A stretch of 64,000 nucleotides of DNA from Muribaculaceae bacterium Isolate-110 (HZI) (GTDB lineage Bacteria; Bacteroidota; Bacteroidia; Bacteroidales; Muribaculaceae), in the NCBI GenBank assembly GCA_003762875.1, contig RIBL01000002.1, positions 186,001-250,000 on the forward strand. Reading direction: 5' to 3'. A model generated the notes under the pieces. The model had not been told where the DNA came from. It made no database searches and saw nothing but the letters and a program-made list of their open reading frames with translations. Positions 34,694 to 50,965 of the stretch are shown here, piece by piece. Within the stretch, counting starts at the first letter, position 1. Every line of letters begins with the position of its first letter. A program made the position numbers and the translations under genes.

Positions 34694-36226
34694 TTATTCA
34701 AACGAACCCATCTTGAGGTAGTTGACCTCGTCCTGGGTGAGATAACGCCAGCGACCGCGGGGGAGGTTCTTCTTGGTGAGACCTGCGAAGTAGACGCGGT
34801 CGAGTTTTGTCACATGATAGCCGAGGCTCTCAAAGATGCGGCGCACGATGCGGTTGCGTCCGGAGTGAATCTCGATGCCGGCCTGGTTGCGGTCTGTCTC
34901 GGTGGCATATGATATGGCGTCGGCGTGTATGGGGCCGTCCTCAAGCTCGATGCCGTCGGCTATACGCTGCATATCGTCCTCGGTGATGTCGTGGTCGGTC
35001 CATACGTGATAAATCTTTTTCTTTACAAACTTGGGGTGTGTGAGCTTGGAGGCAAGGTCGCCGTCGTTGGTGAGCAGGAGCACTCCGGTGGTGTTGCGGT
35101 CGAGACGTCCTACGGGATAGATGCGCTCCTCACACGCGCCCTTGACGAGATCCATGACGGTGAGACGTCCGTTGGGATCGTCGCTTGTGGTGACACAGTC
35201 TTTGGGCTTGTTGAGAAGTATGTAGCACTTCTTCTCGAGGGTCACCACCTTGCCGTCATACTCTACGACGTCGTTGTGGCTGACCTTGGTGCCAAGCTCG
35301 GTAACTACCTCTCCGTTGACCTTGATCAGACCCTTGAGGATGTATTCGTCGGCTTCGCGGCGCGAGCAGAGTCCGGCGTTGGCCATGAACTTGTTGAGAC
35401 GAAGCTGTTCGTTGGGATCGGGCAGCGGTGTCTCGTACTCGATGCGCTTGGGACGCGGGGTGAAGCTGCGTCCTCCCTGGGGCATGCCATACTGGTTCTG
35501 ACGGGGACCTTTGTTCTGATAGCCGCCCTGACGATTGTTCTGGTAACCGCCCTGCTGACGGGGCTGGTAACCACCCTGCTGACGGGGCTGGTAGCCGCCC
35601 TGCTGACGGGGCTGATAACCACCCTGCTGACGGAGCTGATAGCCGCCCTGCTGACGGGGCTGATAACCGCCCTGCTGACGGGGCTGATAACCACCCTGCT
35701 GACGGGGCTGATAGCCGCCCTGCTGACGGGGCTGGTAACCGCCCTGCTGACGGTTGTAATTGTTGCGGGGCTGATAACCGCCCTGACGGTTATAGTTGTT
35801 GCGGGGCTGATAGCCGGTGGAGGGAGCTGTGTTTTCACCCTGCTCTGAGTCGGTCACCGCGCTGTCGGAGGTATGGCCTTCGGTCTGGGGCACATGGGGA
35901 CGGGGCTGGTAGCCACCCTGCTGACGGGGCTGATAGCCGCCTTGGTTGCCGTAGCGGTTGTTCTGATAGCCGCCCTGATTGCCATAGCGGTTGTTCTGAT
36001 AGCCGCCTTGGCGGTTATAGTTGTTGCGGGGCTGATAAGGCCTCTGCTGGCGGTCGCCATATGATTGGGAGCTGTAGGTGTTCTGTGACTGTCCCTCGGA
36101 GTTGCTTTCAGCCGAAGATGCATAATCGTTTGATGAGTTGTCGCGTACGCCACCGTCATGCGAATCTACGGTGTAAGGGCGCGCACCGATGCGGGGTCTT
36201 TTACCTTTCTTTTCGTTGCTGTCCAT
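34694..36226 (-). CDS. rluB: RluB/RsuA-family 23S rRNA pseudouridine synthase with long repetitive N-terminus
   Basis: A 510-residue protein. The C-terminal 240 residues are a standard RNA pseudouridine synthase: S4 domain (RLNKFMANAGLCSRREADEY), NKPKDCVTTSDD, the catalytic-Asp motif GRLDRNTTGVLLLTNDGDL and GRNRIVRRIFESLGYHV. The first 265 residues are a low-complexity Gln/Gly/Tyr/Arg/Asn region, including nine copies of QQGGYQPR-type octapeptides (residues 160-231), predicted to be disordered and RNA-binding. RluB of Proteobacteria lacks this; related extensions occur in Bacteroidetes. It heads a likely rluB-asnS operon from a TAACTTTG element far upstream. Assignment to RluB rather than RluE or RsuA is by overall similarity only. 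Confidence 0.92.
   Translation of the reverse strand: MDSNEKKGKRPRIGARPYTVDSHDGGVRDNSSNDYASSAESNSEGQSQNTYSSQSYGDRQQRPYQPRNNYNRQGGYQNNRYGNQGGYQNNRYGNQGGYQPRQQGGYQPRPHVPQTEGHTSDSAVTDSEQGENTAPSTGYQPRNNYNRQGGYQPRNNYNRQQGGYQPRQQGGYQPRQQGGYQPRQQGGYQPRQQGGYQLRQQGGYQPRQQGGYQPRQQGGYQPRQQGGYQNNRQGGYQNKGPRQNQYGMPQGGRSFTPRPKRIEYETPLPDPNEQLRLNKFMANAGLCSRREADEYILKGLIKVNGEVVTELGTKVSHNDVVEYDGKVVTLEKKCYILLNKPKDCVTTSDDPNGRLTVMDLVKGACEERIYPVGRLDRNTTGVLLLTNDGDLASKLTHPKFVKKKIYHVWTDHDITEDDMQRIADGIELEDGPIHADAISYATETDRNQAGIEIHSGRNRIVRRIFESLGYHVTKLDRVYFAGLTKKNLPRGRWRYLTQDEVNYLKMGSFE
35534..35749 (-). repeat. Nine tandem 24-bp units inside the rluB-like gene
   Basis: The 216 bases encode nine octapeptides of the type QQGGYQPR; one has L for P, and the last is QQGGYQNN. 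Neighbouring near-repeats (NNYNRQGG, NQGGYQNNRYG) flank it. Nearly identical DNA units suggest slippage and length variation between strains. Confidence 0.9.
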
Positions 36227-37261: not shown

Positions 37262-38284
37262 TTAACGCTGTACGCGGCCGTTGGCGTTACCGCCGGCAAG
37301 CGACATTACTTCGTCAACCGACACAAGGTTGAAGTCGCCGGGGATAGTATGCTTGAGAGCGGATGCTGCTACGGCAAACTCGAGAGCTTCGCCCTGGTTG
37401 GGCATGGTGAGCAGACCGTGGATCACACCGCCGGAGAAAGAGTCGCCGCCACCTACGCGGTCGATGATGGGGTTGATGTCGTAACGCTTTGACTCGTAGA
37501 ACTCCTCGCCGTTGTAGATCATAGCCTTCCAGCCATTGTGAGTGGCTGAGAACGACTCGCGGAGTGTAGAGATGACATACTTGAAGCCAAACTCCTTGGC
37601 CATGGCCTTGAAGATGCCCTTGTAGCCTTCGGCGTTGGTCTCGCCACCCTCAACGTCAGCGTCGGGCTTGAAACCGAGGCAGAGCTCGGCGTCCTCTTCG
37701 TTGCCGATGCATACATCGACATACTGCATGAGGGGACGCATGATCGACTGAGCCTTCTCCTTGGTCCATAGCTTCTTGCGGAAGTTAAGGTCGACCGATA
37801 CAGTCACGCCGTGACGCTTTGCAGCCTCGCAGGCGAGACGGGTCAGCTCGGCAGCCTTGTCAGAGATGGCGGGGGTGATGCCGCTCCAGTGGAACCAGTC
37901 GGCACCCTCCATGATGGCGTCGAAGTCGAAATCTTCGGGATCGGCCTCGGAGATAGCCGAGTTGGCGCGGTCATAGATAACCTTGGAGGGGCGCATAGAT
38001 GCGCCGGTCTCGCAATAGTAGATGCCCACACGGTCACCGCCGCGGGCTATATGATCGGTGTGCACGCCGTAACGACGCAGAGCGTTGACGGCAGCCTGAC
38101 CGATCTCGTGCTTGGGGAGCTTGGACACGAAATAAGCATCGTGGCCATAGTTGGCGCAGCTTACGGCTACGTTGGCCTCGCCGCCACCCCAGATGACATC
38201 AAAATTGTCGACCTGCACGAAACGATAGTTTCCTGCGGGGGAAAGGCGAAGCATGATTTCGCCCAGTGTAACTACTTTACTCAT
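37262..38284 (-). CDS. kdgK: 2-keto-3-deoxygluconate kinase
   Basis: PfkB/ribokinase-family sugar kinase, 340 residues, expected to phosphorylate 2-keto-3-deoxygluconate to KDPG in uronate breakdown. Motifs: the start VVTLGEIMLRLSPAGNYRFV, the GGGEANVAVSCANYG substrate region, VSVDLNFRKKLW, the NEED segment and the catalytic/anion-hole motif DRVGGGDSFSGGVIHGL. Its place downstream of kduI and the permease supports this substrate over other PfkB sugars. The KDPG aldolase is not in the window. Confidence 0.9.
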   Translation of the reverse strand: MSKVVTLGEIMLRLSPAGNYRFVQVDNFDVIWGGGEANVAVSCANYGHDAYFVSKLPKHEIGQAAVNALRRYGVHTDHIARGGDRVGIYYCETGASMRPSKVIYDRANSAISEADPEDFDFDAIMEGADWFHWSGITPAISDKAAELTRLACEAAKRHGVTVSVDLNFRKKLWTKEKAQSIMRPLMQYVDVCIGNEEDAELCLGFKPDADVEGGETNAEGYKGIFKAMAKEFGFKYVISTLRESFSATHNGWKAMIYNGEEFYESKRYDINPIIDRVGGGDSFSGGVIHGLLTMPNQGEALEFAVAASALKHTIPGDFNLVSVDEVMSLAGGNANGRVQR

Positions 38285-38361: not shown

Positions 38362-39693
38362 TCAGCCTTCGCGTCCGGCATCGTCGGCGTCAAGACCCTC
38401 CATGAGTTTCTTGGCATCGACATAACGGGCTATGCCCTCGGCGACCCGCTTGGCATCCTGCATGGCATGGACCACCGTGGCGGGACGGTTGGTGACATCG
38501 CCGCCGGCAAAGACACCGCGGCGCGTGGTCATACCATAGGGCACTTCGCGCGTGAGGACGTAGCCTTTGGCATCGACATCAATGCCTTCAGTGGTCGAAA
38601 CGATGCGCGAGGCCGGGGCACTGCCCACTGCCATTATCACGCGGTCGACGGGCATAACTACCGATGTATCGCCGGTCTTGACGGTGATGTTACGGAGACG
38701 GTCATTGTCACCGCCCTCGATGTGCGTCACTGATGACTGCCACATGAACTTCACTCCCTCGGCCACAGCGTCGTCATACTCGGCACGCAACGCGCTCATG
38801 TCGTTGACGGTGCGATGATAGATGACTGTTACCTCGGAAGAACCCATGCGCAGAGCGGTACGGGCGGCATCGATGGCTGTATTGCCGCAGCCTATGACGG
38901 CTACTCTATCGCCGTCGCCGACAATTACTTCGCGACGGTCGATACATCCCGACTGATAGAGGCTCACGCGACGCAGAAACCATATGGCCTGGCGCACTCC
39001 GGGGTGGTCTATGCCCTCGATGGGGAGCTTTTTGGGGCGACCGGTGCCGGTGCCCATGAAGATGGCATCGAAACCTTTGGCAAACAGGTCGTCGATGGTG
39101 TAATCGCGTCCGATGGTGGTCTGGAGATGAAATTTCACACCGAGATTTTCGATTTTCTTAATCTCGCGGCGCACCACTTCCTTGGGCAGACGATATTCGG
39201 GTATGCCGAACATCAGCACACCACCGGGCTCAGGCTCCATCTCGAAAATCTCCACGCTGTAACCTTTGCGCGAGAGATCGCCGGCAATAGTCAGACCGGC
39301 AGGGCCGCTGCCTATGACGGCTACTGAGCCGCGGGTCTTTTCGGGAATGGCTTCGTGGGTGAGACATGCCTTGCTGTCAAAGTCGGCTACGAAACGCTCG
39401 AGTTTGCCGATGTTGATGTGCTTGCCGGCCTTGCGGAGCACACACGCGCCCTCGCACTGACGCTCATGACCACACACGCGGCCACACACGGCGGGGAGGT
39501 TGCTGCGCGCGTTGATGATAGCCATCGAGTTGCCAAAGTTACCTTTGGCAAGCTCGGCTATCCACTCGGGGATGTCGTTGCTGATGGGACATCCTTTCTT
39601 GCAGGATGGCACTTTGCAGTGAAGGCATCTTTGGGCCTCACGCACGGCCTCGGCAAGCGTATAGTTTTCGGAGACTTCCTTAAACTCGTTCAT
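38362..39693 (-). CDS. GltD/NfnB-like iron-sulfur flavoprotein, second paralogue
   Basis: A 443-residue FAD/NAD(P)H oxidoreductase related to glutamate synthase small subunit. It has Fe-S cysteines (CLHCKVPSCKKGCP, CGRVCGHERQCEGAC), FAD motif VAVIGSGPAGLTIAGDLSRK, NAD(P) motif VAVIGCGNTAIDAARTALR and the C-terminal FAGGDVTNRPATVVHAMQDA. It starts only 7 bases after the kduI stop and lies before kdgK, so it travels with uronate catabolism rather than with a partner subunit. Unlike the copy at 30792 it has no adjacent NfnA-like gene. A redox job linked to KduD cofactor balance is possible but not shown. Confidence 0.85.
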   Translation of the reverse strand: MNEFKEVSENYTLAEAVREAQRCLHCKVPSCKKGCPISNDIPEWIAELAKGNFGNSMAIINARSNLPAVCGRVCGHERQCEGACVLRKAGKHINIGKLERFVADFDSKACLTHEAIPEKTRGSVAVIGSGPAGLTIAGDLSRKGYSVEIFEMEPEPGGVLMFGIPEYRLPKEVVRREIKKIENLGVKFHLQTTIGRDYTIDDLFAKGFDAIFMGTGTGRPKKLPIEGIDHPGVRQAIWFLRRVSLYQSGCIDRREVIVGDGDRVAVIGCGNTAIDAARTALRMGSSEVTVIYHRTVNDMSALRAEYDDAVAEGVKFMWQSSVTHIEGGDNDRLRNITVKTGDTSVVMPVDRVIMAVGSAPASRIVSTTEGIDVDAKGYVLTREVPYGMTTRRGVFAGGDVTNRPATVVHAMQDAKRVAEGIARYVDAKKLMEGLDADDAGREG

Positions 39694-39700
39694 TTACAGA

Positions 39701-40621
39701 CTATTTCATTTCAAGATAGGTCACCTTATCCATGTCGCCATAGTTAAGGTTTTCGCCACCCATGCCCCATATGAACATGTAGTTGGATGTACCGGCGGCG
39801 GCATGTATCGACCACTCGGGCGAGATGATGGCCTGCTCATTGTGGAGCCATACGATGCGGTTTTCCTTGGGCTCACCCATGAAGTGACACACGGCGTTGC
39901 CTTCGGGGACGTTGAAATAGAAATAGGCCTCGACGCGACGGTCGTGAGTGTGGGCGGGCATGGTATTCCATACGCTGCCGGGCTTGAGTTCGGTCAGACC
40001 CATCTGGAGCTGGCACGGACCCTCTTCGAGCACATTGTTGACAATGAGCTGGTTGATGACGCGGTCGTTGCTCTCCTCCATCTTGCCTGCGGCGAAACTA
40101 TTGGCCTTGATAGAGCCTTTGCGTCCGTCGATGGTGATGAGCTGGGTCTTGTAGGCCTTGTGGGCTGTAGTGGAGTTGAGATAGAATTTGGCGGGATTGG
40201 AAGCGTCCTTGCTGCGGAAGGTCACTTTCTTGTTGCCGCGGCCTACATAGAGAGCGTCCTTGAAGTGGAGCTCGTAGTCCTTGCCGTCAACATTGACAAT
40301 GCCGTCGCCACCTATATTAATTACACCGAGCTCGCGACGCTCAAGGAAGTATTCGGCCTTGAGGGGGTCGATGGTCTCAAGTTCCACGACTTTGGTCACG
40401 GGCACCACGCCGCCGTAGATTAGACGGTCATACATGGTGTAGGTGAGGTTGATCTTGTCCTGCTCCATGACTTTGGGCATCATGAAGCGTTCGCGGAGCT
40501 GGGTCGTGTCGTAATGCTTAACGTCGTCGGGATGACAGGCGCGGAGCACTGTATAGTCGGTCTGAGCCATAGCTGAGATTGAGGCTAATGCGAGTGATAC
40601 GGTTAGATATATTTTTTTCAT
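39701..40621 (-). CDS. kduI: 5-keto-4-deoxyuronate isomerase with a signal peptide
   Basis: Cupin-fold isomerase converting 5-keto-4-deoxyuronate (from unsaturated galacturonate or glucuronate) to 3-deoxy-D-glycero-2,5-hexodiulosonate. The zinc-site motif [13 protein letters not shown] and later [20 protein letters not shown] give the expected ligands. Family traits [20 protein letters not shown] and [16 protein letters not shown] are present. The protein is 306 residues, about 28 longer than the E. coli enzyme, and the extra part is a clear signal peptide ([20 protein letters not shown]). KduI is normally cytoplasmic, so this one is probably periplasmic. It lies 30 bases after the permease gene and directly before the flavoprotein. 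Confidence 0.93.
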
Positions 40622-40651: not shown

Positions 40652-42073
40652 TTATTCCATGGTCTGGAGCGTATCGGCATCCTTTGCGACCATAGCTTTC
40701 TGGTTGCGGAGGATATTAACGCGGTTCCATATCATAAGCGCGAGTGTCACGAGCACGAGTATGCCGGCTCCAATCCATTTAAGGCTGATGGAGCACTGAT
40801 AGATTACCCATGCAAGGGGGCTTGAGGCGAAGTCGAGGCTGCCGCCGTCAAAGTTTGCGGGGATGGCCACTGCTGCGTCGCCCGTCACTGCATACACGTC
40901 CTTGGCCGCAAGGGTGAAGGCGGGCGCGAGGTTGGTGACGAGATAGAGTCCGACGGTGAGCACTACGAGTCCGATGATGAATGTCTTGACCACACTGCCC
41001 TTGGTGTAGGGAAGCACAAGTGGGAAGACGTAGAACATGCCGGCCAGCGATGCCAGAGGCAGGAACTGGTTGCCGGGGAGCACTACGGCAAGGATGAGGG
41101 TCACGGGGATGAGGAGTATCGACACCACGAGCGTGGTGGGGTGACCGATGACGAGGGCGGGTGTCATGCCGATGTTAAGGCCGTCGGCTCCCTTGAATTT
41201 GCGTGCAATGAGCGAGCGTGTGGCTTCGCTTATGGGGCGTAGTCCTTCGATGAAGAGTACGGTCACGCGGGGGATGAGTTCCATGACGGCTCCCATCTTG
41301 ATGCCAAGACCGAGGATGTATGGTATCTTGTCGACAATCTCGGTCCAGCTTTTGCAGGTGAGGCATCCAATGGCTACGCCTACCACTACTCCGAGGAAAA
41401 GCGGCTCACCGAGGAGACCGAATTTCTTTTTCAAGCCTTCGGCATCGACTTCAATCTTGTTCATGCCGGGGATGGCGTCAAGACCCTTGTTGATGGCCCA
41501 GGCGAAGGGTACGAAGCCGGCGCAGAATGGCTGCGGGATGGATATACCGTCCATGTCTTTGTAGAATCCCTGAAATTTCTTGGCTGTCACATCAGCTATA
41601 ATCAATGTGAGGATGTAGCAGATGATGGCCCCGAAGAATCCCCAGGCAAGCGATTCGCTGGCGAAGTAGATAACGGCTCCGATAAATGCGAAGTGCCAGT
41701 AGTTCCAGAGGTCGATATTGACGGTGCGTGTGGTCTTGGTAAGCAACATGAGTATGTTGACTCCGAGACACACAGGGATGATGAAGGCTCCGACCGCAGT
41801 GTTGTAGGCTACCGATGCGGCTGCTGGCCATCCCATGTCGAAGACTTTGAGCTGGAGGTCATAGATGTTGACCACTGTGTCAAGTGCCGGACCGAGAGCT
41901 GAGGTAAGCAGAGCGGTAACGATGGAGAGTCCCACGAATCCGACTCCGACTTTGAGTCCCGACTTGAGCGCATCGCCAAACTTGATGCCTATACACAATC
42001 CTAAAATCGTGAATATCACAGGCATCATCACCGCAGCACCAAGGCCGATTATGTATGCAAAAATTTGTTCCAA
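40652..42073 (-). CDS. Galactitol-PTS-IIC-like permease without PTS partners
   Basis: A 473-residue polytopic membrane protein with ten or more helices, resembling the membrane component (EIIC, GatC type) of the galactitol phosphotransferase system: MPVIFTILGLCIGIKFGDAL, KSGLKVGVGFVGLSIVTALL, VYDLQLKVFDMGWPAA-like segment, NYWHFAFIGAVIYFASESLA and LNIGMTPALVIGHPTTLVVS. No IIA, IIB, HPr or enzyme I is present in the window, and PTS systems are generally absent from Bacteroidales. It most likely works as a non-phosphorylating transporter. Position immediately before kduI suggests a deoxy-ketouronate or KDG substrate (inference). Confidence 0.82.
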   Translation of the reverse strand: MEQIFAYIIGLGAAVMMPVIFTILGLCIGIKFGDALKSGLKVGVGFVGLSIVTALLTSALGPALDTVVNIYDLQLKVFDMGWPAAASVAYNTAVGAFIIPVCLGVNILMLLTKTTRTVNIDLWNYWHFAFIGAVIYFASESLAWGFFGAIICYILTLIIADVTAKKFQGFYKDMDGISIPQPFCAGFVPFAWAINKGLDAIPGMNKIEVDAEGLKKKFGLLGEPLFLGVVVGVAIGCLTCKSWTEIVDKIPYILGLGIKMGAVMELIPRVTVLFIEGLRPISEATRSLIARKFKGADGLNIGMTPALVIGHPTTLVVSILLIPVTLILAVVLPGNQFLPLASLAGMFYVFPLVLPYTKGSVVKTFIIGLVVLTVGLYLVTNLAPAFTLAAKDVYAVTGDAAVAIPANFDGGSLDFASSPLAWVIYQCSISLKWIGAGILVLVTLALMIWNRVNILRNQKAMVAKDADTLQTME

Positions 42074-42219: not shown

Positions 42220-42620
42220 ATGGATTTTAGTTTTGAACGATTGACCGTATGGCAGAAATCACTACTGCTTGTAAAGAAAATTTATGCCATAACCAATAAT
42301 TTTACCGACAGGGAGAAATTCGGACTCACCGACCAGATGCGCAGGGCGGCAGTGTCGATATCCTCCAATTTAGCTGAAGGCTCAGGCCGCATATCCACCA
42401 AAGAAAGGTGCACATCTGCGAGATTTCCTATGGCTCGCTGATGGAAGTCATGTGTCAGCTTATATTGTCAAAAGACCTCGTGCTGATTTCCGACGAGACC
42501 ATCAGCGAGACACGACCTATGATTGAAGACATCGGCAATATGCTGAGTGCCTATCGTCGCGCACTGTTCAAATCCATACAATTATACACAATAAATGTAT
42601 CTCTAAACTTTAAACTTTAA
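42220..42620 (+). pseudogene. Four-helix-bundle (S23-type) protein gene with a frameshift
   Basis: The N-terminal 60 residues are typical of the four-helix-bundle/S23 family (FERLTVWQKSLLLVKKIYAI, GLTDQMRRAAVSISSNLAEG, SGRIST). After ISTKE the frame changes near 42400-42410: the expected continuation KVHICEISYGSLMEVMCQLI lies one frame over and runs to 42620. A single missing A in a GAAAGG tract would explain it. It lies on the opposite strand between kduD and the permease, interrupting the uronate cluster. Function of the family is unknown. Homopolymer sequencing error is a real alternative to a pseudogene. Confidence 0.75.
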
Positions 42621-42647: not shown

Positions 42648-43442
42648 CTACTTAGGTTGCTTTCCGATATAGGCGAGAATGCCGCCGTCGACGTAGAGCA
42701 CGTGGCCGTTGACGAAGTCAGAGGCGTCGGAGGCAAGGAAAACGGCGGGCCCCATAAGATCCTCGGGGGTGCCCCAGCGGGCTGCGGGGGTCTTGGAGAT
42801 GATGAACTGGTCAAAGGGATGACGGCTGCCGTCGGGCTGAAGCTCGCGCAGAGGTGCGGTCTGCTCGGTGGCTATGTAGCCGGGGCCGATGCCGTTGCAC
42901 TGGATGTTGTATTCGCCAAACTCGGAGCAGATGTTGCGTGTGAGCATCTTCAGGCCACCCTTTGCGGCTGCATACGCGCTCACAGTCTCGCGGCCGAGCT
43001 CGCTCATCATGGAGCAGACGTTGATGATTTTGCCGTGACCTTTCTTAATCATGCCGGGGATCACTGCCTTGGCGCAGATGTAGGGGGCGATAAGGTCTAC
43101 GTCAACCACACGACGGAAGTCCTCGACATCCATCTCGGTCATGGGTATGCGCTTGATTATGCCGGCATTATTGACAAGAATATCGATTGTGCCTACCGTA
43201 GCCTCGATGTCGGCCACCATGGCCTTGACAGCTTGCTCGTCGGTAACGTCACAGAGATAGCCTTTTGCTTCTATGCCGAGCTCCTTATATGCTTTGAGTC
43301 CGCGGTCTACAGTCTCCTGACGCGAGCAGTTGAATACGATTTTTGCACCGGCTTCGGCGTATGCCTGAGCTATGGCAAGGCCTATTCCATAGGCTCCTCC
43401 TGTGACGAGGGCCACTTTGCCCTCCAATGAAAAATTCACCAT
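42648..43442 (-). CDS. kduD: 2-deoxy-D-gluconate 3-dehydrogenase / KDG 5-dehydrogenase type SDR
   Basis: A 264-residue short-chain dehydrogenase, expected to reduce 3-deoxy-D-glycero-2,5-hexodiulosonate to 2-keto-3-deoxygluconate with NAD(P)H. Motifs: VALVTGGAYGIGLAIAQAYA (cofactor loop), LVNNAGIIKRIPM, NVCSMMSELG with the catalytic Ser, and SAYAAAKGGLKML with Tyr-xxx-Lys. The IIKRIPMTEMDVEDFRRV and CNGIGPGYIATEQTAPLRE segments and the C-terminal LASDASDFVNGHVLYVDGG agree with KduD. It has no signal peptide, so it is cytoplasmic, in contrast to the KduI here. It has its own promoter and is separated from the rest of the cluster by the four-helix-bundle gene. Confidence 0.9.
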   Translation of the reverse strand: MVNFSLEGKVALVTGGAYGIGLAIAQAYAEAGAKIVFNCSRQETVDRGLKAYKELGIEAKGYLCDVTDEQAVKAMVADIEATVGTIDILVNNAGIIKRIPMTEMDVEDFRRVVDVDLIAPYICAKAVIPGMIKKGHGKIINVCSMMSELGRETVSAYAAAKGGLKMLTRNICSEFGEYNIQCNGIGPGYIATEQTAPLRELQPDGSRHPFDQFIISKTPAARWGTPEDLMGPAVFLASDASDFVNGHVLYVDGGILAYIGKQPK

Positions 43443-49825: not shown

Positions 49826-50965
49826 TTACAGTTTGTATACTTCCGAGCCGGCGAGGAGGAAACAACCTGTGCCATAATCGTCAAAGTCGGGCTTGGAGTC
49901 ATAGGCTACGGGCTGGCCGTCCTTAGGCTCTTTGCCGGTGCCTTGGACATAACCAAGATAACCGTTAGGGTGTACGGCTTCCTTGGCCATGGCGTTCCAC
50001 GCCTTGGTTATCACAGGCATGTATTTGTCATGGTCAAGAATGCCATTGCGCACGCCATATGCCATGCCGTAGACGAAGAGAGCGGTGCCTGTCACTTCCT
50101 TGCCGCCGAAATTGGAGGGGTCGTGGAGCGATACGTTCCAGAAGCCGTCCTCACGCTGACATTTCACAAGCGCGGCACACATGTCCTGAAGGTCTTTCTC
50201 ATACTCTTTGCGGTGGGGGTCATCGGCAGGAATCTCGTCGAGCACTCTCACGAGAGCGGCCACTACCCAGCCGTTGCCGCGCGACCAGTAGCAGTCTTTG
50301 CCGTTGGGCTCCTTGTAGGGGGGCACAAAGTCGGCGTCGCGCCACCACAGGCCATCTTTCTTGTTGTAAAGACCGCCGGCGAGGGTGTTGCGGGTCCAGG
50401 AATACATCTCGTAGGCTTTCTCAGCATATCGGGGGTCGCCAGTAGTGGCCGAGAGTTTGGCGAGGATAGGCATGCCCATCTGTATGGCGTCAATCCATGT
50501 CCAGTCGTCAACCTGAGGAGTGTTGACGAGCATGTTCATTGTCGCCTTGGTCTTGGTGAGCATTTCGGGACGCGGGGTGAGACGATAGAGGTCGATGTAG
50601 ACTTGTGCGGCGCAATAATTGTCGGCATTGCGGGTGGTGGAGTCATCACGACGCATGCCCCACTTGAAGCCGTCGGCCCACGAGTAGGCATAATCGTAAT
50701 ATCTGTTGTCGGGATATATGGAATGCAGGGCCATCAGTCCCTCGAAATATACCGCACGGGTCCAGATGTTGGCTTCATAGACCTTTTTACGCGAGTAATA
50801 GGGAATGCCAAGCAGTGGGTCGGGGTGTTTTTTCAGATAATGGTCATTGACTTTGACAAGGGTGTTGAGAATCTCGGCACGCGGCTGGAGCTCCTCGGCC
50901 ATCACGGGCATCGCGGTCAAAAAGGCCACCGCAGCGATTAAACATTTGGATAGAATCTTTTTCAT
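49826..50965 (-). CDS. GH105 unsaturated rhamnogalacturonyl hydrolase, exported
   Basis: A 379-residue (alpha/alpha)6-barrel hydrolase that removes the unsaturated uronic acid left by pectin or rhamnogalacturonan lyases. I start at MKKILSKCLIAAVAFLTAMP, a signal peptide; the longer open frame overlaps the GH106-like gene. Family marks are NADNYCAAQVYIDLYRLT, DDWTWIDAIQMGMPILAKL with the catalytic Asp, GLWWRDADFVPP, CYWSRGNGWVVAALVRVLDE and KEVTGTALFVYGMAYGV. It is the last gene of the operon, 14 bases after the GH106-like stop. Its product feeds the kduI-kduD-kdgK route encoded about 10 kb away. Confidence 0.93.
   Translation of the reverse strand: MKKILSKCLIAAVAFLTAMPVMAEELQPRAEILNTLVKVNDHYLKKHPDPLLGIPYYSRKKVYEANIWTRAVYFEGLMALHSIYPDNRYYDYAYSWADGFKWGMRRDDSTTRNADNYCAAQVYIDLYRLTPRPEMLTKTKATMNMLVNTPQVDDWTWIDAIQMGMPILAKLSATTGDPRYAEKAYEMYSWTRNTLAGGLYNKKDGLWWRDADFVPPYKEPNGKDCYWSRGNGWVVAALVRVLDEIPADDPHRKEYEKDLQDMCAALVKCQREDGFWNVSLHDPSNFGGKEVTGTALFVYGMAYGVRNGILDHDKYMPVITKAWNAMAKEAVHPNGYLGYVQGTGKEPKDGQPVAYDSKPDFDDYGTGCFLLAGSEVYKL

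Follow-up and report, generated by a model that had tools for sequence, protein, structure and literature searches.

Known 5-keto-4-deoxyuronate isomerases (KduI), those of Escherichia coli and of most Bacteroidota, are cytoplasmic enzymes. In passages of the work on glycosaminoglycan (GAG) loci of Bacteroides thetaiotaomicron, 5-keto-4-deoxyuronate (DKI) enters metabolism in the cytoplasm (PMC6994673), and a 2025 survey of isomerase-reductase clusters describes a Bacteroidota kduI-dhuD cluster called type E (PMC12838403); its main text uses "periplasm" once, about Dickeya, and does not contain the word "signal". On the transport side, an E. coli galactitol-type PTS transporter was deduced, according to parts of PMC10989795, to let xylose through unphosphorylated, by facilitated diffusion, when EI is inactive. 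We found no description of an exported KduI in the open-licence literature. Here, we report a KduI with a signal peptide, encoded next to an EIIC-GAT permease in a stretch of 64,000 nucleotides from Muribaculaceae bacterium Isolate-110 (HZI), i.e., the window. It is, in our judgment, probable that the whole scheme holds, in which a KduI exported by Sec and signal peptidase I (SPI) works in the periplasm, the permease imports its diketo product and the pathway is finished in the cytoplasm. The features needed below are as follows.

37262..38284, minus strand: PfkB-family kinase (PF00294), 2-keto-3-deoxygluconate (KDG) kinase-like, no signal peptide
38362..39693, minus strand: GltD-like flavin/FeS oxidoreductase (Fer4_20 and Pyr_redox_2), between kduI and the kinase
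39701..40621, minus strand: kduI, predicted exported 5-keto-4-deoxyuronate isomerase (NF002091), 306 aa, ATG start
39929..39952, minus strand: HTHDRRVE, with H224, H226 and E231 of the four zinc-ligand positions, from the alignment with E. coli KduI
40565..40621, minus strand: predicted signal peptide, codons 1-19, SPI cleavage before Q20, from direct reading, the strict rule, the codon-position pattern and the 9kd0 match
40652..42073, minus strand: EIIC-GAT permease (PF03611), apparently orphan, 473 aa, TTG start, ending 30 nt before kduI
42648..43442, minus strand: SDR of the gluconate 5-dehydrogenase/DhuD-like type (NF005488), no signal peptide, upstream of the permease
49826..50965, minus strand: predicted exported GH88/GH105-family unsaturated uronyl hydrolase (PF07470, 302 bits), 379 aa from an internal ATG

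By its sequence, the window protein is a true KduI carrying an export signal, real and conserved rather than an annotation error. It scores 400 bits against the equivalog model for 5-dehydro-4-deoxy-D-glucuronate isomerase (NCBIfam NF002091, residues 27-305), well above the cut-off of 250 that defines membership, and 80 bits against Pfam KduI/IolB (cut-off 24); its relatives within the family are 75-94% identical to it. In E. coli KduI we take H196, H198, E203 and H245 to be the zinc ligands. They align to H224, H226, E231 and H273 of the window protein, and these residues are kept in 93, 92, 93 and 93 of the 93 exported rows, respectively, so that the intact zinc motif claimed in the original prediction is found as quoted, with all four ligand positions conserved. 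The prediction had also put the excess length over E. coli KduI (306 versus 278 aa) down to the signal peptide. This stands in part: the difference does not come from the peptide alone, because clade insertions at residues 166-169 and 201-202 add to it. These two insertions are common to nearly all exported KduI rows of the families f1, f59, f111 and f41. At residue 158 the window protein has a lysine, where 90 of 92 cytoplasmic rows have a proline. Together, Lys158 and the clade-specific insertions (residues 158-202) possibly form a contact site for a partner or a substrate.

Residues 1-19 of the window KduI show n-, h- and c-regions with Ala at -3 and -1 and Gln at +1, and this Sec/SPI pattern, with its A-x-A site and Q at +1, recurs in the relatives; going by sequence, the leader places the protein outside the usual cytoplasmic location of KduI. 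Gln is at +1 in 67 of 90 distinct exported KduI sequences as cut automatically. Under the "Q-rule" of Bacteroidetes, as given in parts of PMC5837995, SPI substrates have Q at +1 in 71% of cases (mean over species). Differences by codon position in the leader were compared among 87 distinct aligned sequences of equal leader length, the window's own included. Pairwise differences at the first, second and third codon positions are 0.57, 0.37 and 0.67 over codons 2-17, and 0.67, 0.68 and 0.69 at the same three positions over the 48 nt upstream of the ATG. Codons 6-17 contain no stop and no D, E, K or R in any of the 87 sequences, and Met at position 18, the sole internal Met ahead of the enzyme core, occurs in 17 of them. 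The codon pattern, the lack of stops and charges and the rarity of Met18 together argue that the leader is part of the translated protein and has been maintained in that role. The original prediction had suggested looking for homologues that start at an internal methionine after the hydrophobic segment; most have no such residue, and their leaders are coding and follow the signal-peptide pattern.

We then applied a strict signal-peptide rule which is home-made and was drawn up with the data in view; it is positive in 93/93 exported-type KduI loci and 0/97 others. The control proteins give 1/143 for SDR, 0/73 for KdgK, 0/30 for GltD-like proteins and 1/84 for the permease. Please note that our first, crude rule called 20/143 SDR proteins positive and missed L065, which was assigned to the exported group by eye; six of the 97 cytoplasmic rows (L109, L151, L167, L190, L156 and L188) were likewise read as leaderless by eye. 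The signal peptide first proposed for the window protein is borne out by this result, and export via Sec and signal peptidase I is well supported by the predicted leader. The closest solved chain, 9kd0, matches the window KduI from residue 20, i.e., the mature Gln, on, an indication that the construct had been designed without the leader.

The loci behind these counts come from three sources: 80 named loci (the best 80 of 391, leaning to close relatives), 30 order-wide loci and 80 further stretches. L081 and L112 duplicate the window's own locus and do not count among the 93 and the 97; L018 and L083 have an identical N-terminus and may be one genome. Across the order Bacteroidales, 103 of 393 genomes have a KduI match, and 101 of these were read, G011 and G233 having fragments without an N-terminus; 10 genomes carry the exported type, 91 a leaderless KduI and two fragments. 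Muribaculaceae has a match in 93 of 297 genomes: 88 are full-length, 75-100% identical and start at query residue 1-10, and five hold fragments alone (67-87% identity). No Muribaculaceae row from the 297 genomes has an identity of 42-66%, the values spanned by the remaining matches of the order. In a sample of the phylum, KduI matched in 101 of 390 genomes, of which 86 were read, the remaining 15 being weaker matches. The exported type was found there in G000, G059 and G258 alone, all already in the order set, and the 87 KduI loci of the other 83 genomes read show no signal peptide (L236, flagged by the simple rule, was judged leaderless by eye). The genome G388 has both an exported KduI with permease (L086/L202) and a cytoplasmic kduI-SDR pair (L178), and the two forms can therefore coexist; a rhamnogalacturonan-lyase-like gene is found a few kilobases away from its exported unit. 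The unit is also carried by locus L013 of Duncaniella muris DSM 103720. Six loci with titles naming other taxa, i.e., L001 (Paenibacillus), L015 (Alistipes), L024 (Lachnospiraceae), L042 (Clostridium), L047 (Clostridiales) and L075 (Lachnoclostridium), encode a window-type KduI of 80-93% identity, and these MAG names are probably wrong.

The permease gives 264 bits with PF03611 (EIIC-GAT) and 378 bits with the GatC subfamily model TIGR00827, below its cut-off of 542, and is the only EIIC-GAT match in its own genome. Searches of that genome for PTS_IIB (PF02302) and HPr (PF00381) returned no match, both being positive in control genomes. The permease looks like an orphan because these partners have no match, and PTS-driven import was set aside on the same ground. 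In the window it starts with TTG; a scan for ATG starts finds ATG near that place in L200-L204, L206 and L207.

The distribution of the permease ties it to the exported enzyme. It occurs in 10 of 393 Bacteroidales genomes, and these are the same 10 that have an exported KduI (G000, G025, G059, G258, G388, G211, G357, G151, G078 and G182). None of the 383 order genomes lacking the permease has an exported KduI: 91 are leaderless, two have fragments and the rest are without a KduI match. Given 103 genomes with KduI, an identical set of 10 would arise by chance with a probability of ~4e-14, a figure to be taken as a guide only, the genomes being related. Five contrasts within a genus or family agree with the co-occurrence: G211 and G357 versus G111 and G293 in g116, G059 versus G165 in g64, G388 versus G327 in g193, G078 and G182 versus G272 and G339 in g83, and G151 versus G041 and G245 in f41. 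A draw from the phylum has the permease in 3 of 395 genomes, all with an exported KduI. Whether exported KduI always neighbours the permease had been raised as a check on the original prediction; 10/10 permease genomes have the exported form, with no discordant case among the 393. Permease linkage and apparent orphan status add evidence beyond the single N-terminus and context that the prediction was built on. The pairing has been seen so far in Bacteroidales alone, the permease having been searched for within the phylum.

At the level of the locus, 86 of 93 exported loci (own-locus copies excluded) include the permease in the stretch retrieved, and in 88 of 88 rows (own copies counted) it shares the strand of kduI. 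The distance from its end to kduI is at most 340 nt in 70 of these 88 and 1.1-3.1 kb in the other 18, often with the kinase between. Seven exported loci are without it on the stretch, five being near an edge, L029 and L053 having more upstream sequence; all seven have a permease match elsewhere in the genome, that of L030 being a 128-residue fragment at a contig end. Around cytoplasmic KduI, no one conserved transporter was seen in 61 loci of more than 8 kb, 16 of which have a protein with at least six predicted membrane segments within three genes.

Among the named loci (best 80 of 391), the permease is present in 73, an SDR in 59, the kinase in 51 and a GltD-like gene in 29. The SDR was originally described as a KduD lacking a signal. 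It has no leader; by score it belongs to the gluconate 5-dehydrogenase model (NF005488, 499 bits, cut-off 369), falling below the cut-off of the kduD model (TIGR01832, 225 bits versus 339). We call it DhuD-like, without a direct comparison to DhuD, because Bacteroidota have a kduI-dhuD pair in the part of PMC12838403 consulted. The KdgK without a signal was read correctly, no leader being present, and its best NCBIfam match is to the kinase portion of a fused KDPG aldolase/kinase (526 bits versus a cut-off of 700). In other named loci (again the best 80 of 391), the GltD-like protein is either 62-88% or merely 35-42% identical to that of the window, as if, judging from these identities, two different genes take the place between kduI and the kinase. 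Between SDR and permease, at 42220-42600 (+), lies what is left of a disrupted gene for a 23S rRNA-intervening-sequence protein, whose first 56 residues match PF05635 and are followed by stops in frame. Elsewhere in the window, the frame at 34694-36226 (-) has a long QGGYQPR-rich repeat N-terminus ahead of what we take to be a pseudouridine-synthase-like C-terminus. In f78 the gene order is SDR-permease-kduI, as in the window. In f59, f111 and f41, where some neighbours were scanned, the permease-kduI pair stands among genes without a recognised pathway gene.

How often the pair arose was approached by phylogeny. The exported KduI of f1, f59, f111 and f41 form one group (support 100/100). The exported KduI of f78 (L094, L095) have neither insertion and lie outside this group; the f78 permease falls inside a starred group of 14 rows, among permeases of the Bacteroidaceae type. 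Constraining the f78 KduI to 10 of its permease neighbours costs 88 log-likelihood units (p-AU 9.6e-5), for a test group of 12 of the 14 permease-group rows (L089 and L078 left out) that was chosen after the earlier KduI tree was known; what the test rejects is solely a grouping of the f78 KduI with the KduI from those genomes that have the permeases closest to that of f78. Since the f78 permease is found among the others and its KduI belongs to another lineage, the two genes appear to have been brought together on more than one occasion. We are less sure whether export had one or two origins: two changes of export appear both in a quick tree (127 rows) and in a careful one (45 rows), and a careful tree of 43 rows places all exported KduI on one side with weak support (77/83), leaving a single origin open. 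If export arose just once, the event in f78 would have been an exchange of the permease, not a second gain of export.

The rest of the pathway can be laid out around this pair. The exported GH105 named in the original prediction has an export signal by eye (N-terminus MKKILSKCLIAAVAFLTAMPVMA), as have the other two GH88/GH105-family matches of the genome; of these three open reading frames (ORFs), which all pass the crude rule, one is lipoprotein-like, and one of the three matches is weak (45 bits). The window gene adjoins a GH106-type protein, which points to substrates of the rhamnogalacturonan type. These hydrolases would release unsaturated uronate in the periplasm, where it would open to DKI, and the exported KduI would convert DKI to the diketo form DKII (3-deoxy-D-glycero-2,5-hexodiulosonate). 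The adjacent permease would then carry DKII across the inner membrane without phosphorylation, and the SDR followed by the KDG kinase would finish the route in the cytoplasm, the reduction pulling the flux. KduI, which requires zinc but no nucleotide cofactor, can therefore function in the periplasm; the SDR, which depends on NAD(P)H, cannot. Activity of KduI in the periplasm would follow from its predicted export, and the pairing of exported KduI with the permease leads us to infer the import of the diketo form, i.e., both substrate and direction of the permease. Please note that the co-occurrence is silent on the cargo, and the permease could carry DKI instead. A second KduI was sought in the genome, where the PF04962 profile finds the window kduI alone. 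DhuI was also considered as a hidden cytoplasmic isomerase and rejected: the sole LacAB/RpiB match is an open frame of 155 aa, the size of RpiB. Here we rely on what we take to be the family and size of DhuI.

Other explanations were weighed against this scheme. The exported KduI may isomerise another periplasmic sugar acid, e.g., galacturonate or glucuronate, with the permease importing that product and the DKI route being secondary. Conversion of both acids has been proposed for E. coli KduI, according to portions of PMC3578941, the insertions of the main exported clade may change specificity, and next to the pair in f59, f111 and f41 no SDR was recognised. However, the protein reaches 400 bits with the DKI isomerase equivalog and keeps the zinc positions, an SDR and a KDG kinase-like gene accompany kduI in the window and in most of the best 80 of 391 loci, and the GH88-family ORFs, exported as well, would produce DKI on that side of the membrane, all of which makes this reading unlikely. 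It is quite improbable, too, that the permease imports DKI or another compound and is linked to KduI by shared regulation instead of by passing on a product, the periplasmic enzyme perhaps mainly clearing a reactive aldehyde: the pair stays together where no other pathway gene is seen (L200, L201, L202, L204 and L205), in f78 a permease of this lineage stands next to a KduI of a different one, and the genome has neither a further KduI match nor a second LacAB/RpiB match that might be DhuI. What speaks for it is that the proposed substrate of the permease is deduced from the pairing and that, in the passages of PMC10989795 cited above, a related transporter also carries xylose.

The remaining rival concerns the N-terminus itself, which would be miscalled if translation started at Met18 (MAQTDY...) and the enzyme stayed in the cytoplasm. 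The window does have an in-frame ATG at codon 18, and 17 of the 87 sequences noted above, its own among them, have a Met there; the other 70 lack it, the upstream codons evolve as coding sequence, the strict rule holds in all 93 exported-type loci, and the 9kd0 chain matches from residue 20 only. The codon-position pattern and the missing Met rule this start out as a general explanation, and we give it hardly any credence. Periplasmic isomerisation followed by import of the diketo form is thus our preferred reading. For the broader proposal, that exported KduI and orphan permease make up a two-gene uptake module (DKI isomerised outside and imported unphosphorylated) which was assembled at least twice and replaced the cytoplasmic enzyme of Muribaculaceae, we lean toward acceptance with some reserve.

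What is new here is an exported form of a known enzyme and pathway together with a strongly linked, unexpected transporter. The predicted leaders and the linkage suggest that, in some gut bacteria, a single step in the degradation of pectin or glycosaminoglycans takes place outside the inner membrane, its product being imported afterwards. If true, one step of a textbook cytoplasmic pathway moves to the periplasm, the exported isomerase and a permease without PTS partners name a concrete inner-membrane transporter for the uronates of gut Bacteroidales, and the EIIC-GAT "galactitol PTS subunits" annotated in genomes seemingly without a PTS gain a likely function.

In comparison with known systems, the permease shares the Pfam family EIIC-GAT with GatC, the galactitol PTS subunit IIC (PDB 9u82 series), with similarity over residues 3-435 (E 2.4e-81); it differs in missing the TIGR00827 cut-off and in belonging to a genome without a PTS_IIB or HPr match. 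With the cytoplasmic KduI of E. coli and most Bacteroidota, the window enzyme shares the equivalog family, the zinc positions and the downstream SDR and KDG kinase chemistry. The cytoplasmic enzymes, in contrast, have no signal peptide (typical start MKTNYELRYAAHP) and lack the insertions at 166-169 and 201-202. Their SDR is usually directly downstream, and none of the 97 cytoplasmic loci (26 with less than 1.8 kb upstream) has an EIIC permease beside kduI; the window has its SDR upstream of kduI, with the permease in between. The order SDR-permease-kduI also sets the window apart from the type E cluster, in which kduI is directly followed by dhuD. As for structures, a literature search found no paper naming 9KD0 or 9KCZ; the 9kd0 chain falls in the exported clade, being 95% identical over 275 columns to the KduI of L080, which has both the signal peptide and the permease.
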